Position numbers and translations under genes: made by a program. From Desulfobulbaceae bacterium (GTDB taxonomy: Bacteria; Desulfobacterota; Desulfobulbia; Desulfobulbales; SURF-16), in assembly GCA_020444175.1 (NCBI GenBank), contig JAHLLM010000015.1, forward strand, positions 1 to 64,000: 64,000 nucleotides of DNA, read 5' to 3'. Below the pieces are notes generated by a model. The model saw only the letters and a program-made list of their open reading frames with translations, had not been told where the DNA came from and did no database searches. Positions 23,953 through 33,178 of the stretch are shown in pieces; position 1 is the stretch's first letter; each line of letters opens with the position of its first letter.

Positions 23953-26394
23953 ATGAAACAAAGCATAAGGAATAAAATTTTTATCAATTTTGCCGCCTTT
24001 ATTTCGGTGGTTATTTGCATTTTTGTGGTTGTCATCTTTTGGCAGCTGCACAAAAATACAGTTGAACAGGAAAAATTACTGAAAAAAGAACTGACCTCCC
24101 GCACCTTCACTACAGTTAAAGATTATCACACCACGACACAATTTCTACTCCACACCGTTCGCCAAAAAATCGAAGACTATGGGATATTAATTTCTCAGAA
24201 CTTACCAATTGCCAGTACCATAAAAAGACGTCAAGTCGAATCAATTGTAGAATACTTGCAAGTATCAGCAAAAAAAGAGGACATTGATTTTGTTCTTGTT
24301 TTTAGTGACGACGGAATTTTGCTGGCATCTAGCGGAGGCTCGAAAGGATACAGACCAGGGGACTTGCATCTTCCAAGTCGGATTGAGTCATATACAAATT
24401 TTCCCAGTGTACAAAAACTAAATACTATCCTTAAAAATGAAATCAGCTTGCAGGTATCCCCACAGGAGTCTCTGGCGAGGGAAAAAGAATCTTCTGCTCA
24501 CGGATTGATCAAGCTTGAGGCAGAATTTCTGAAAACCATGGGCTTTGACCAGGGCAAAGTTCGCAGAAAATCGATTGCCGTTTGGGGTACAGGTATCATC
24601 CGGGATGAATTTTCTATTCCGGTCGGTATATACATTGCCGGAAAACTCATGGATGACCTTAGTCATTTTTTCCAAGGGCTTTATGAGTCAATTGATGCAG
24701 CTACCATTCTTTATGTTGACGGGACACCAATAGATTTTGTCGGGTTGGACAATATAGAGCGGGAAAACAACGAGCGTTCTTTGCCTGAAATCAGTCAGTC
24801 CGAAATGGAAAAGATTTATGACAACAACCAGCCAACCAATCTTATCCTTTCATTTCCCCCTGAGAGATATCTCTCCGCCTGTTCTTCGCTTAAAGATGTT
24901 GAGCAGAATAAGATCGGCATTCTGTGCTCCGGCATACCTGAAAGCCAAATCGAAAAAGTGCAGCAACCTTTACTTGTTCACGGCATTGAGACACAGAAAA
25001 TCCTGCAAAGATGGCTTTTAGTGAGTGGCGTTATCCTGGTTTTGATCTCTATTCTTCTGGCTAGGACAATCGCCATGGGAATCACGAAGCCGCTTGAAAA
25101 CGTGGTTGAATTTACCGACAAGTTGGAGGACGGTGATTTATCCCGCCGGTTGAATACCTCATCAAAAGATGAAATAGGTGCTCTGAGCAAATCGATTGAT
25201 ACAATGCTGGACAATCTCAATATTGCACTGAGGGAAAAAGAAAAACTTGAAGGTCAGCTCCGTCAAGCCCATAAAATGGAGGCCATTGGCACCATGGCTG
25301 GCGGCATTGCCCACGATTTTAACAACCTGTTAGCGGTTATACTTGGTTATACAGATTTGGCTAAAGAAGATCTGCCGGATTCCCATCCGTCAAAATCTTC
25401 ACTTGAACAAGTCCTTAAGGCAGGCATCCAGGCAAGAGACCTTATTAAGCAAATTTTATCCTTCAGCCGCAAAGAGGCTCAAGAACTTGTTGCTGTTGAA
25501 ATTCATCTTATAGTCAAAGAAGCACTCAAGCTGCTCAGAGCGTCAATACCGACAACCATTGAGATCAAACCAAACATAGATACTCATTGCGGTTATATAT
25601 TGGCAGATCCGAGTCAGGTTCATCAAGTACTTATTAACCTCTGCACGAATGCCTCCCATGCCATGGAAGAGGATGGCGGTGTACTTGAAGTTGGCCTCAA
25701 ACGGGTGAATATCGATACTGCTGATTTGGCGGTCAAGTTGCACCTCAAACAAGGGCCCTATATTGTACTCTCTGTAAAAGATAGTGGGATCGGCATAGAA
25801 GATGCGGTTCAGGATCGGATATTTGATCCCTATTTCACGACAAAAGAAGTTGGTAAAGGGTCCGGTATGGGACTGGCCGTAGTAGTTGGTGTTGTAAAAT
25901 GTCATAATGGTTCCGTAATTGTTGACAGCAAACCAGGAAAAGGCACAACTTTTTATGTCTATTTTCCAAGGGTTGACAAAGAAATCGACATGGAAGTAAA
26001 TGACAGTGGCCCAATTCCAACCGGCAATGAGCGAATTCTCGTTGTCGATGACGAAGAACACATTGCTGATATGACCAAGAGGAGACTCGAACTCCTCGGC
26101 TATCAAGTGACAACCAAAACAAGCAGCATAGAAGCTCTTGATTTAATCCGTGCCCGGCCGGATGATTTTGACCTGATTATCACAGATCAGACAATGCCGA
26201 GGGTTACAGGAGAGCAACTGGCACAAAAAATAATGGAGTTTAGACCGAATATTCCAATTATTCTTTGTACTGGTTACAGTTCTAAAATTGATGCCCAAAA
26301 GGCGGACGCTGTGGGAATAAAGGCCTTTGTCATGAAGCCGGTAGACAAAGTGGAATTGGCGGGGACCATACGAAACATTCTGGATAATCAGTAA
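23953..26394 (+). CDS. Transmembrane hybrid histidine kinase partnered with the PstS-like protein
   Basis: The protein is 813 aa from ATG 23953; the frame is open further upstream but would overlap the binding-protein gene. Order: TM1 at about 9-31, a periplasmic sensor (about 32-350, double-Cache-like), TM2 at about 353-375, HAMP (about 376-428), HisKA with phospho-acceptor H454 in GGIAHDFNNLL, HATPase_c (DSGIGI, GSGMGLAVV), and a C-terminal receiver with acidic pair VVDDE and phospho-acceptor D745 (DLIITDQTMP). It starts 7 bp after the PstS-like gene, so the pair is cotranscribed. No DNA-binding regulator is adjacent; output must pass to a distant protein or remain within the receiver. Confidence 0.9.
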   Translation: MKQSIRNKIFINFAAFISVVICIFVVVIFWQLHKNTVEQEKLLKKELTSRTFTTVKDYHTTTQFLLHTVRQKIEDYGILISQNLPIASTIKRRQVESIVEYLQVSAKKEDIDFVLVFSDDGILLASSGGSKGYRPGDLHLPSRIESYTNFPSVQKLNTILKNEISLQVSPQESLAREKESSAHGLIKLEAEFLKTMGFDQGKVRRKSIAVWGTGIIRDEFSIPVGIYIAGKLMDDLSHFFQGLYESIDAATILYVDGTPIDFVGLDNIERENNERSLPEISQSEMEKIYDNNQPTNLILSFPPERYLSACSSLKDVEQNKIGILCSGIPESQIEKVQQPLLVHGIETQKILQRWLLVSGVILVLISILLARTIAMGITKPLENVVEFTDKLEDGDLSRRLNTSSKDEIGALSKSIDTMLDNLNIALREKEKLEGQLRQAHKMEAIGTMAGGIAHDFNNLLAVILGYTDLAKEDLPDSHPSKSSLEQVLKAGIQARDLIKQILSFSRKEAQELVAVEIHLIVKEALKLLRASIPTTIEIKPNIDTHCGYILADPSQVHQVLINLCTNASHAMEEDGGVLEVGLKRVNIDTADLAVKLHLKQGPYIVLSVKDSGIGIEDAVQDRIFDPYFTTKEVGKGSGMGLAVVVGVVKCHNGSVIVDSKPGKGTTFYVYFPRVDKEIDMEVNDSGPIPTGNERILVVDDEEHIADMTKRRLELLGYQVTTKTSSIEALDLIRARPDDFDLIITDQTMPRVTGEQLAQKIMEFRPNIPIILCTGYSSKIDAQKADAVGIKAFVMKPVDKVELAGTIRNILDNQ

Positions 26395-26429
26395 TATCAG
26401 CCTTTCCACACTCAAGGGAAATGCGCCCA

Positions 26430-26638
26430 TACTAATGGCTGCATGGATGCAATCCAGTTATGCCTGCGGGCAATATCGAGTCCCGGTGAGGTGATCATTA
26501 CGGAATCCCCGACATTCACCTGCTATCTCCAGTTCATCGAGGACATGGGCTTGCTTGCCCTGGAGCTGCCGATACTTGAAATTTTGACCAGACGCAAGGT
26601 TCCGGTTATTGAAGATGACATTTATGGAGATTTCTATT
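26430..26638 (+). pseudogene. Internally deleted partial duplicate of the MocR-type gene
   Basis: Positions 26430-26573 are nearly identical to 19554-19697 (three visible substitutions: TACCAATGG/TACTAATGG, GACGTG/GAGGTG, CAGCTC/CAGTTC). Positions 26574-26638 match 19834-19900 with slightly more differences. The 135 bp between (19699-19833) are missing, an in-frame loss of 45 codons. The fragment has no HTH, no PLP lysine and no ribosome site, so it is not functional. It breaks off at a RAYT relic. Direct visual alignment makes the duplication certain; the mechanism is inference. Confidence 0.9.
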
Positions 26639-26797
26639 TACCTGGCCCGTAAATTAGTTGACCTTTCATGCTGCAAGCTGGCCGAATATTTCGGCAACGT
26701 TTCCGTAGCGGCGATCACCATGAAGTATAAAAGGTTTTCCTGTGTATTGACCCACGATAAAAGACTGAACAAGTCCGTGACAAAACTGAGCGAATGA
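26630..26797 (+). pseudogene. C-terminal relic of a REP-associated tyrosine transposase (RAYT)
   Basis: The frame reads IYLARKLVDLSCCKLAEYF, then GNVSVAAITMKYKRFSCVLTHDKRLNKS, ending SVTKLSE-stop. This resembles the DnaA-C-terminal-like helix-turn-helix found at the C-terminus of many Y1/RAYT transposases (consensus style: IYLxRxLtglslkeIgexFG.....avsxxxxRxxxxLxxDxxLxxxv). The catalytic HUH domain is absent. It follows immediately, in a different frame, after the MocR fragment, marking a recombination joint near 26635. Confidence 0.6.
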
Positions 26798-27869: not shown

Positions 27870-28160
27870 GTGATAGGGAGAAAATGTAGGGTTTTTTTTA
27901 GTTATCTCGCTCCTGTTTAACCTGGGACAGCTCACGCTTAACTCTGGCAAGTTCCTGCTCAACCTCAGTTAAAGGGCGGTGATGTCTTCCTGTTTCTTTC
28001 AGGAGCCCTGCCTTAAATGATCTCACTCAATTTTCAGGGGTAGATTTTGGCAAAGAGTGACGACGTGAAGCCTCGTAAGCCGACACACCACCTCTCTAAC
28101 CATTTTTACAGCCTCTTCCCGAAACTTTTTCGAGTAGCGCACATGAGTACCTCTTTTCAT
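27870..28160 (-). pseudogene. Degenerate IS3-family transposase orfA
   Basis: Reading the minus strand from the ATG at 28160 (preceded by GGAGGTG) gives RYSKKFREEAVKMVRE, then after a frameshift VSAYEASRRHSLPKSTP, a stop, then VRSFKAGLLKETG and RPLTEVEQELARVKRELSQ, then VKQERDN and a stop. This is the typical helix-turn-helix plus leucine-zipper of IS3 OrfA. One frameshift and at least two stops kill it; OrfB (the DDE transposase) and recognisable terminal repeats are missing. Confidence 0.85.
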
Positions 28161-28223
28161 TCTGACACCTCCGTTTAGTCAATAACATTAAACTTTGGTA
28201 TCCGTCTATTTCAACCTACCCCA

Positions 28224-29318: not shown

Positions 29319-29754
29319 CGAGTTGGGGCCAATCAAAAGTCACTATGTCTTCTTGTCAACTTATTACCAAGGAAGCATCTTCAATTTTCGTTTTCTTTTC
29401 GGCTGGAGCCGGTTTACCACTGGCAACACTTATCATGATTTTTTTTTTAAAATTATGTATTTCTGAGTTGTTTTGTTCATATTCCCGGAATCAGGGCAAC
29501 TGTTCTTGTATATCCTCAAGAATTCCATAATAATCTAACAGATTGAAATCATGAAATAATGCCAATAAATAAGTAAACAACGAGTTGTCGGTGTGGAAAT
29601 TGCAATTTCCGATTTAAGAAATGAATAGATGTTCATGTTTGGCAGGTGGCCTGAAGAGAAACTTTATTGTATAGGCTATTATCGTTTCGAGAGTATATAA
29701 TACGAAGATTAACGCCATGATTATTTGTGAAAAAATATATCTATTACTGGAAAT
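29319..29754. other. AT-rich intergenic region, nothing recognised
   Basis: About 435 bp with poly-T runs and a short AAATTGCAATTT palindrome near 29607. The 71-codon plus-strand frame starting in the NapH-like stop region has no ribosome site and is dismissed. Probably the promoter region of the two-gene Lon-type module. Confidence 0.5.
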
Positions 29755-30921
29755 ATGATTACCTCAAAAAATAAAGTCTGGATAATGTCAGACGGAAATA
29801 CCATTGATCTTGACCTGAACACTGTTGCCAAGGAAAAAATTTCTGGTCGGGTTACAGAATACAAGATATCTGAGATTGCAATGTATCTGCTCAGTCCGCA
29901 GCCTATTGAAATGGAAGATTATGTAATTGGCTGCAAAGTTCATCACAAGGCCCCTGCCTCTAGTTTGTTAAAACGTTTTTTTAATAAACTGACCTTCAGG
30001 AAAGAAGATTCAGCAAAAAATGCAGAAGAACTTATTGAAGAGATTCTGATAACCCCAAAACACAACCCTCCATTATTTAGAGATAATTTGTTAAATCAGC
30101 ATTTCATGAGGATTAAGGAACAACTCATTCCCTATAAACCGATCCACAAAAAACTTTCTTCCCTGGATATAAACCTCATTGATGAAGTAACAGCGATAGG
30201 TGAGGGTATTGATAAGACCAGGTATCAAATTACTCTTGGCGGCAGTATTAATGATAAAATAAATTTAATTATTAACTCATTGACAAGAAAAGCAAAAATT
30301 ACCCTTGGAAAGGCGTATATCCAAGACGGCTTATTCGACTTCAGGGGATATTCTTTTACCTCATTTAATACAAAAAATGCGTACCCTCTGATTCGATGTT
30401 TTCATGAAAATCAAACAAAATACTGCGTATTAACAGGTGATTATAAATTTAATTACTGGGTTGAGGATAATGAACTAATCGATTATTTGCGTCTCTTTGA
30501 GCAATCTATTCAAACGGATAAAGAACTTAAAAGTGCGATCAATTTATGCATAAAAGGGAAAGCTAATCCTTTAAAACTTTTCTTTTCTGATCAATACGAG
30601 CAGAACTACTCGAAAAGAAATCTCCCTAAGATTTATCGAGAGATGATGTTTTCCCATAATATCGCCCCAAACGAAATTGAAGCCATTAGTCAAACGTTAA
30701 ACAACAATCAAAGCGTTGTTTGTTTTACTTATGCCCCAACTTTCGAACCTGACCAGCAAAAACTCTTTACCAATATCTCTGTTATGCATGATCTGAAAGC
30801 TTTAGATTCTATAAAAGAGAGAGTGCCTCGCGTGTATTCTGAAATTATTAAAAAAACTGCAGACTTTGAAACGAAACAGCTCTACCTGCTGGATTCAATG
30901 AGAGGTTGTCAGGATGTCTAA
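29755..30921 (+). CDS. Unrecognised protein overlapping the LonB-type protease gene
   Basis: I do not recognise this 388-aa protein. It has no signal peptide or TM segment. It begins with a short DGNTIDLDLNTVAK segment, a Lys/Glu-rich middle, and later beta-rich parts (KAKITLGKAYIQDGLFDFRGYSF, TKYCVLTGDYKFNYWV). The stop codon lies inside the next gene (8-bp overlap), so expression is translationally coupled to the LonB-like protease, and a substrate, adaptor or regulator role is the natural inference. Base composition is distinctly more AT-rich than the central-metabolism genes, consistent with horizontal acquisition. The start is uncertain: ATG 29785 (MSDGNT) is an alternative. Confidence 0.65.
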   Translation: MITSKNKVWIMSDGNTIDLDLNTVAKEKISGRVTEYKISEIAMYLLSPQPIEMEDYVIGCKVHHKAPASSLLKRFFNKLTFRKEDSAKNAEELIEEILITPKHNPPLFRDNLLNQHFMRIKEQLIPYKPIHKKLSSLDINLIDEVTAIGEGIDKTRYQITLGGSINDKINLIINSLTRKAKITLGKAYIQDGLFDFRGYSFTSFNTKNAYPLIRCFHENQTKYCVLTGDYKFNYWVEDNELIDYLRLFEQSIQTDKELKSAINLCIKGKANPLKLFFSDQYEQNYSKRNLPKIYREMMFSHNIAPNEIEAISQTLNNNQSVVCFTYAPTFEPDQQKLFTNISVMHDLKALDSIKERVPRVYSEIIKKTADFETKQLYLLDSMRGCQDV

Positions 30922-33178
30922 TGGCTACAATGAGAATGATTATAAATGGATAAATGAGATATTGCTTTATCCGCAAAAACTTGAGAAGCGACTGGACTAT
31001 CTCGAAGACACTTCCAGTATAAAGGTCCCAGGCGATCCAATAGAAAAGGTAATATTTCAGGACAAAGCCAAAAAAGCCATCCGCAAGGTTGCCCAGAACA
31101 GGGGGCATATGTTGATGGTTGGTAAACCAGGCACAGGTAAGTCTTTGTTGGCAGGGATGTTCAAGGATGTTTTGGAAAGATCAATTGGAGACTATATCAG
31201 GCCCAAAAAAGCCATTGCAGCTTACCCTGGAAAAGACAGTAATCATGTCCGCTTTGCATATGAACACCCTGAAAGAATTGACAAATACCTGAAGGATTTG
31301 AGAGCGGAGATAGAAGAAGCCAAACAGAGTATTGAAGAGTTTTCGCTGGCAGATTTGATTGCTTCTGTCAGAAAGGTTAAGAAATTTCTGATCTGGGGCG
31401 CCTGTCTCAGTATCATTGGTGGAATCTACTTCCCTCCCTTGTTTATTGTTACAGGCCTTGCAGGAATTGGATCAATATTTATGTTCATGCAGGAAAACAA
31501 CCATAAAGTTCAGGAGAAAATTCAGAGAGAGTCGCTTCAGGGCATGATACTGTCTGTTAAACATATTGAAGATATGGTCCCAGAGCTTCTTTACGATCCA
31601 CGCAAAGATAAAGACCTTATGGTTAATGTTTCAGAGCCAAACTCTAAAAACATGAAGGGGGGATTTCTTCACGATCCTTACCAGTCCGGAAAATTACAAA
31701 CACCGATCCATAAGAGAGCCTACCTTGGCGCCCATGCAAAGGCTCCAATAATATATATTGATGAGTTGAAAACTCTCGTAAAGACAAGATATATGTACAG
31801 CCTTTTTGAGATTATGCAAAACAAGCGATACATGCTTGAGGGAGGCACAAATACCGGAAGTGGTGCAGCAGATCGATCTGAAAATCATCTTAAGGCGGAC
31901 AATATAATTATAGCTTGCTGTAATCATGACACTTTAATCCACCTGCAGGAGGAAGGGGACGGAGCATTCTTAAGTAGAATTGAGGATAAAGGTGAAATCA
32001 TTGAGATGGAAACTTCCGTACCGGAAACAGCTGATAACGTAAAGCAGGTCGCCCAGTATATTAAACAGGAGATTCTTAACCTGGAACAGGAGTTTGAAAG
32101 AACTTGGGGTAAAGTTTTTGAAAAAGAAGGCAATGCCGGGGTGCGGGAAAGGAGCGAGAAGATTTACGGTAAAAAATTGCCACCTGATTACAAACTAACG
32201 GTTCGCGATTTTTCAAGAAATGCTGTCACTGAAATTATCAAGGAATTACGCTGCCGGAGTTCAGACGGTAAACTGAGCTGTATACTGAGGCCGATCAACG
32301 GTATTCTTAAAACTGCCGAACTTGAAGCTATTATAGATAATTCTGAATTTGTAGAGCCGAAACATATAAGGACTGCCCTGGAAGAACATCTCAGTCTCGA
32401 AGGCGCAGTCTCTGTTGAAATAATACAACAGAAGAAAGATTTAAAAAAATACATCACGTCAATGACAGATTCAATTGGCTATGTTGTTGGCCTGGCAGTT
32501 ATTCACTCACGGTCCAGCGGCCAGATGTTCGGACAACCTCTGCCAATTCACTGTCAGATAAATACCGGGGGGTCGGACATAATAACCGCTCCCGGGAAGA
32601 TCGGCGATATCGCCAAAGCTGCAGCGCAAAATGTGAGGGCCTCAATAAAGAGACTCATGCGCAAGATAGAGGCGCCTTATGTGTGTTGCGAGATGCATAT
32701 TGAATATGTCCAAGCTCATGGAGGCATAGAAGGCGACAGTGCCTCAGTTGCAATGGACATAGGCTTAATATCAGATTATATCCAACATCCGGTGAACCAG
32801 AAATTCGGTATAACAGGTTCTCTTACAGGAGACATCATTCTGGCTGTTGGGGGAGTTACAGAAAAAATCAGGTCAATCATGGATATCAATCTGACAATGG
32901 AAGGCGCCTGTATCCCCTGGCAAAATAAATATGATATTGAACCGCTGCTGGTCAATATGGAATCAGAATACATACAGCTTGATGACGTTCCAGGAATACG
33001 AATTTACCGGTCCGATGATAGAAAGGATCCCTTTGATATCTATTTCTGTAAGACTAAATATAACGCCTACAGAATATTAATGGGTCTCAACAAAAGTGAA
33101 GTGGAAGCTAAAATGGTCGAAAGAAGCAGAAAAGATCTGGAATTTACCAAGCAAGTAAAATGCGAATACGAACATTAA
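30914..33178 (+). CDS. Membrane-anchored archaeal-type LonB protease
   Basis: A 754-aa ATP-dependent serine protease of the LonB class, usual in archaea. The AAA+ domain has Walker A GKPGTGKS (70-77). A coiled stretch and two TM segments (about 155-193) are inserted between Walker A and Walker B (IIYIDE, 279-284), the LonB hallmark. Sensor-like NIIIACCNHD and a finger-like LSRIE follow. The C-terminal protease domain has the catalytic Ser609 in EGDSASVAM and Lys651 in GGVTEKI, an intact Ser-Lys dyad. It should face the cytoplasm and degrade or process membrane-proximal proteins. It overlaps the unknown upstream gene by 8 bp. Length is greater than most archaeal LonB proteins, with a long linker (about 390-520). 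Confidence 0.88.
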   Translation: MSNGYNENDYKWINEILLYPQKLEKRLDYLEDTSSIKVPGDPIEKVIFQDKAKKAIRKVAQNRGHMLMVGKPGTGKSLLAGMFKDVLERSIGDYIRPKKAIAAYPGKDSNHVRFAYEHPERIDKYLKDLRAEIEEAKQSIEEFSLADLIASVRKVKKFLIWGACLSIIGGIYFPPLFIVTGLAGIGSIFMFMQENNHKVQEKIQRESLQGMILSVKHIEDMVPELLYDPRKDKDLMVNVSEPNSKNMKGGFLHDPYQSGKLQTPIHKRAYLGAHAKAPIIYIDELKTLVKTRYMYSLFEIMQNKRYMLEGGTNTGSGAADRSENHLKADNIIIACCNHDTLIHLQEEGDGAFLSRIEDKGEIIEMETSVPETADNVKQVAQYIKQEILNLEQEFERTWGKVFEKEGNAGVRERSEKIYGKKLPPDYKLTVRDFSRNAVTEIIKELRCRSSDGKLSCILRPINGILKTAELEAIIDNSEFVEPKHIRTALEEHLSLEGAVSVEIIQQKKDLKKYITSMTDSIGYVVGLAVIHSRSSGQMFGQPLPIHCQINTGGSDIITAPGKIGDIAKAAAQNVRASIKRLMRKIEAPYVCCEMHIEYVQAHGGIEGDSASVAMDIGLISDYIQHPVNQKFGITGSLTGDIILAVGGVTEKIRSIMDINLTMEGACIPWQNKYDIEPLLVNMESEYIQLDDVPGIRIYRSDDRKDPFDIYFCKTKYNAYRILMGLNKSEVEAKMVERSRKDLEFTKQVKCEYEH

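Follow-up and report, generated by a model that had tools for sequence, protein, structure and literature searches.

The window analysed here is a stretch of 64,000 nucleotides from a Desulfobulbaceae genome (assembly GCA_020444175.1, contig JAHLLM010000015.1, positions 1 to 64,000). It contains two overlapping genes, here called A and B, whose features are listed in Table 1. Both open reading frames that the initial annotation had described are present, together with their overlap, which is likely to couple the translation of B to that of A. We regard both as genuine genes because both are under purifying selection, with dN/dS values between close relatives of about 0.1 (A) and 0.05-0.06 (B).

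Table 1. Features of the A-B locus, in positions of the window
Feature	Position	Strand	Description
IS3-type transposase OrfA-like fragment	27898-28178	-	1.6 kb upstream of A; recognised by eye
Intergenic region before A	29319..29754	+	Presumed to contain the promoter; sigma-28-like motif absent from the window copy
Gene A	29755..30921	+	ORF, 388 aa, cytosolic-type, undescribed family, partner of B
End of A/start of B overlap	30914..30921	+	8 bp, the length seen in 24 of 31 measured pairs
Gene B	30914..33178	+	ORF, 754 aa, membrane LonB-like AAA+ serine/lysine protease
Walker A of B	31121..31144	+	GKPGTGKS, residues 70-77; P72-S77 invariant, others nearly so (31 sequences)
Hydrophobic membrane-anchor stretch of B	31382..31489	+	About residues 157-192, probably two helices; hydropathy peak in 31/31 sequences
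Walker B of B	31748..31765	+	IIYIDE, residues 279-284; D283 and E284 invariant; aligned to 3k1j
Catalytic Ser609 of B	32738..32740	+	Within EGDSAS; invariant; aligned to the EGDAAS site of 3k1j
Catalytic Lys651 of B	32864..32866	+	Invariant (31 relatives)

The pair had also been described as AT-rich and as lying close to the relics of mobile elements. The AT-richness is present, but it is partly intrinsic, with the GC content of A below that of B in 31 of 31 loci; given that low GC is largely a property of A itself, we take the AT-richness of A as a weak sign of foreign origin. The IS3 relic reported 1.6 kb from the pair was recognised by eye as an OrfA-like fragment, and inspection short of a systematic search revealed no RAYT relic within 3 kb of the pair, where one had been proposed. 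Directly after a histidine kinase gene, a short fragment that resembles a MocR-like aminotransferase (26395-26652, + strand) looks like a gene remnant. No Rfam match was found between positions 26000 and 38000 of the window.

Protein B resembles Lon proteases of the LonB type. It matches Lon_C in Pfam (E 5.7e-12), the LonB model TIGR00764 in NCBIfam (E 1.8e-72) and, among PDB sequences, the archaeal-type Lon 3k1j (E 6.5e-52), and the alignment with 3k1j spans the AAA+ core, the lid and the protease domain. As the TIGR00764 score of 244.9 bits does not reach the curated cut-off of 516.6 bits, we term B LonB-like and assign it to a divergent subfamily; its score for the LonB lid family LonB_AAA-LID (PF20436), 20.6 bits, is also just under the gathering score of 22.4 bits. 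The N-domain of LonA is absent, the AAA+ match starting at about residue 19. The intact AAA+ site, the inserted transmembrane region and the Ser609/Lys651 dyad that had been read from the single sequence were borne out by 31 relatives, in which the Walker motifs, S609 and K651 vary little or not at all and in all of which the hydrophobic stretch sits between Walker A and Walker B.

Protein A, in contrast, had been said to contain no recognisable motif, and indeed no significant family match was obtained in Pfam, NCBIfam, PADLOC, PHROG or PDB sequences (the best E values were 0.036 in Pfam, 0.85 in NCBIfam and 0.43 among PDB sequences, and PADLOC returned none). A PepX_N identity (E 0.036) and an eRF1-like stretch (E 0.11) were rejected as below significance. 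The protein is conserved along most of its length, and its AlphaFold model has a pLDDT of 82.7 for the whole chain and of 87.6 for residues 187-388 alone. Foldseek comparisons of this model with the PDB gave best E values of 0.51 for the whole model and 0.25 for its C-terminal part, and the search of viral models gave no match. With VIA, residues 54-186 were paired with uL3 at a best Z of 6.1 (rmsd 4.8 over 96 residues), a value within the range that the tool calls common and that we treat as noise, and the C-terminal part was paired with VirB8/NTF2-like folds at a Z of 5.4 (rmsd 4.6 over 93 residues), also in the noise range. Thus, no fold is recognised in the predicted structure of A, and we do not claim that the fold is new. 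An internal duplication was considered as well, given that the secondary structure looked repeated, but a profile comparison of the two halves was no better than controls.

The initial annotation proposed that the two genes form a module, allowing that homologues of A might usually occur without LonB or that A might belong to a known LonB-independent family. Neither was found. Using B as the query, we gathered 46 loci from public genomes and sought A upstream by tblastn. A homologue of A lies directly upstream of B in all 43 testable loci, the remaining three beginning within B at a contig end, with identities to the window copy of about 31-65% for A and 61-86% for B. The pairing also emerges from whole-genome samples searched with profiles. 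In the phylum of the window, A (threshold of E <= 1e-3) and B (E <= 1e-30) occupy the identical 8 of 297 genomes and are side by side in each, and in Nitrospirota they occupy the identical 6 of 245 genomes; in neither sample does one occur without the other, apart from one extra Nitrospirota match to A (E 0.006), which we take as chance. By our calculation, which ignores relatedness, chance would produce identical sets of 8 in 297 genomes about once in 1e15. The module thus appears to be obligate. Even in a very divergent Nitrospirota pair (L096; 87 bits for A and 958 bits for B), A is still directly before B, with a 4-bp overlap. The distances of A and B are correlated (r 0.91), and A varies about twice as much as B (mean distances 0.585 and 0.297, respectively). 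The unit appears to consist of just A and B because the genes flanking the pair are not conserved.

Some loci have features of their own. Beside the most divergent pair, at L096:8462-9393 in genome G464, inspection by eye suggests a muramidase-type endolysin and a small holin-like protein; they may represent a lysis cassette of phage origin. A small cysteine-rich open reading frame of about 55-60 aa (KCCVCGS...YCDxC) closely precedes A in the related Desulfobacteraceae loci L036, L039 and L055 and is perhaps an added operon member. Frameshifts split A in L018 (3787-5008) and B in L051 (5001-7170), reflecting assembly errors or decay.

The copy in the window was probably acquired from another phylum. 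In the tree of B, it and the Nitrospirota locus L010 form a group (SH-aLRT 99) inside a clade that is mostly Nitrospirota (support 98-100). Given that the window copy nests in this clade and that A is absent from 145 relatives of the window genome, these sequence comparisons point to transfer from Nitrospirota, with a contaminant contig as a possible alternative.

Evidence on the regulation of the pair comes from the DNA upstream of A, which in the relatives carries a repeated TCAAG/TTAAT-N14-15-GCCG[AT][AT] motif. The flagellin genes of the same genomes are preceded by TAAAG-N14-GCCGAT, which is of the sigma-28 type. The sigma-28 (FliA) promoter type has been described as TAAAGTTT-N11-GCCGATAA (PMC7286023), and TCAAG variants are known among the FliA sites of E. 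coli, for instance that of flgKL, the spacer of our TCAAG-type sites being one base longer than in such E. coli sites (PMC4183435). When generic sigma-28 scoring was applied, 8 of 19 Nitrospirota-clade loci ranked in the top 5% of background genes, compared with 1 of 17 others. Of the 22 Nitrospirota-clade loci, 19 carry the specific motif, with spacer variation, at most 200 bp from A, whereas shuffles gave 0.08 and the motif occurs in only 3 of 107 other genes, one of which encodes an MCP, and in 0 of 17 other Desulfobacterota-type loci. Since the motif was derived from most of the Nitrospirota-clade loci scored, the held-out loci L098 and L099, both of which are motif-positive, constitute a cleaner test. 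A strict version, TCAAGAAA-N12-GCCGWA, occurs at eight sites in 10 genomes, four of them before A and three before genes whose products we take to be an MCP, an HDOD protein and PilT. The exact TCAAG-N15-GCCGTA alone is not enriched genome-wide over a reversed control, and the promoter claim is therefore based on the position of the motif upstream of A and on the controls. A sigma-54 promoter upstream of A was rejected, as the search returned scattered two-mismatch matches only.

Flagellin also occurs in every AB genome tested, 11 of 11 in Nitrospirota and 8 of 8 in the phylum of the window, including that of the window itself, versus 186 of 297 genomes of that phylum overall. Within the latter phylum alone, the association is weak (p about 0.02 by our calculation, with relatedness ignored), and the module is absent from most flagellated genomes. 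For Nitrospirota, the link to motility is well supported; elsewhere, including in the window, it is unproven. Given that the motif is missing in the window copy and in 17 other Desulfobacterota-type loci, motility control may be lineage-specific. An isolated CTCAAGAA at position 29515 of the window, about 240 bp before A and without a GCCG element, is possibly a decayed promoter half or a chance occurrence.

The strict linkage of A to a membrane protease with intact catalytic sites is a direct observation, and we propose that the two proteins form one regulated-proteolysis unit in motile cells, with A as the adaptor or regulator of LonB, a reading in which our confidence is evenly balanced. 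B would be a membrane-anchored, ATP-driven LonB-type protease and A its dedicated, co-translated cytosolic partner, which would bind particular client proteins or sense a state and would then hand clients to the B hexamer at the inner membrane or license it. B, in turn, would unfold these clients by its AAA+ ring and cut them by the Ser609/Lys651 dyad. In Nitrospirota, the pair is probably switched on together with late flagellar and chemotaxis (sigma-28) genes, and the clients would thus probably be proteins that motile cells must remove. The physical contact between A and B, the adaptor role of A and the relation of the clients to motility are what we infer from these patterns. An adaptor or regulator is the role that best suits a protein probably co-translated with B, devoid of effector domains and travelling with B alone, and it is further favoured by the faster change of A; client-facing parts often change faster. 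More tentatively, and with a probability that we would place on the low side, A may found a new family, conceivably of a new fold, whose members are obligate partners of a bacterial membrane LonB and deliver clients to it, the pair being a flagellar-phase proteolysis checkpoint transferred between phyla as a two-gene cassette.

Several of the same observations may be read differently. The strict one-to-one co-inheritance and the overlap would also fit an obligate subunit, so that A might be a structural or regulatory component of B (an assembly factor, an inhibitor or a gate) and B alone a general quality control protease for membrane proteins, a role that the broad targets of archaeal LonB would be consistent with (PMC9263693). 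We consider this unlikely, as the same review contains no such subunit for archaeal LonB, and both the sparse distribution (8/297 and 6/245 genomes) and the sigma-28-like promoter are ill-suited to general quality control. It is also conceivable that A is the main substrate of B, namely, a regulator or effector that is kept inactive by constant degradation and released when B is inhibited, in the manner of antitoxin turnover or proteolytic switches. Switches under the control of Lon are known, for instance CalpL in type III CRISPR (PMC12751052), and the position of A as the first gene of the operon and its divergence at about twice the rate of B would suit such a role, but no effector, toxin or DNA-binding domain is recognisable in A, the protein is conserved over most of its length under strong purifying selection, and the plasmid or viral copies that toxin-antitoxin pairs often have were not found. 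We consider this explanation unlikely as well.

The initial annotation had pointed instead to stress and anti-phage systems. The patchy distribution and the horizontal acquisition suggested by the tree would be in keeping with a defence module, as would the occurrence of Lon proteases in CRISPR-linked systems. Nevertheless, PADLOC returned nothing convincing for A or B and few matches among 137 neighbours, most of which we take to be paralogues (sigma-54 activators and MotB, for example). No defence-island signature was found among these 137 neighbours, in which response regulators and histidine kinases are the commonest Pfam families. The plasmid search returned no copies of the pair, and the viral contigs contained no relative of A, while for B just one stretch of 54 residues matched, around Walker A. 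As there is no SAVED domain either and the regulation points to motility, the proposed link was not sustained, and we regard an anti-phage or stress-defence function as very improbable.

To our knowledge, Lon proteases have few known adaptors, and no dedicated partner has been described for membrane LonB. In open-access papers, we found no literature on this pair or on a subfamily of LonB-like proteins whose obligate partner belongs to an undescribed family. LonB and Lon adaptors as such were already known. Being strictly linked and recurrent in two phyla, the partner offers a direct handle on client choice by membrane LonB, the promoter evidence gives the orphan family of A a testable physiological setting in flagellated cells, and the AB system is small enough for expression in a laboratory strain.

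Among the systems with which the pair may be compared, archaeal LonB (MEROPS S16.005; TIGR00764; PDB 3k1j) shares with B an AAA+ module directly at the N-terminus, the LonB lid region, a membrane-anchor insertion between the Walker motifs, which is a LonB feature (PMC9569914), a B-type EGDSA site and a Ser-Lys dyad. B differs from it in its TIGR00764 score (245 bits against a cut-off of 517), in its larger insertions, in being bacterial and in being always paired with A; for the LonB of Haloferax, an essential enzyme, the review mentions no A-like partner (PMC9263693). The LonBA of Firmicutes is, like B, a bacterial and presumably membrane-bound Lon outside LonA, but it has an A-type site and no inserted anchor (PMC9569914), whereas B has a B-type site and an inserted one. 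CalpL (Lon-SAVED) of type III CRISPR is a Lon protease that serves as a switch with operon partners, although neither a SAVED domain nor a CRISPR context was found for the AB pair. With regard to A, a parallel is found in Bacillus subtilis, where SmiA acts as the LonA adaptor for SwrA, a regulator of motility (PMC9204741). SmiA is a dedicated partner that directs Lon to clients, as A would, and its known client controls motility. SmiA, however, serves a soluble LonA, and no kinship between the two partners emerged, short of a direct comparison of them. Besides B, the genome of the window encodes five other full-length Lon_C proteins (on contigs C4, C88, C64, C37 and C63), which is a large set.
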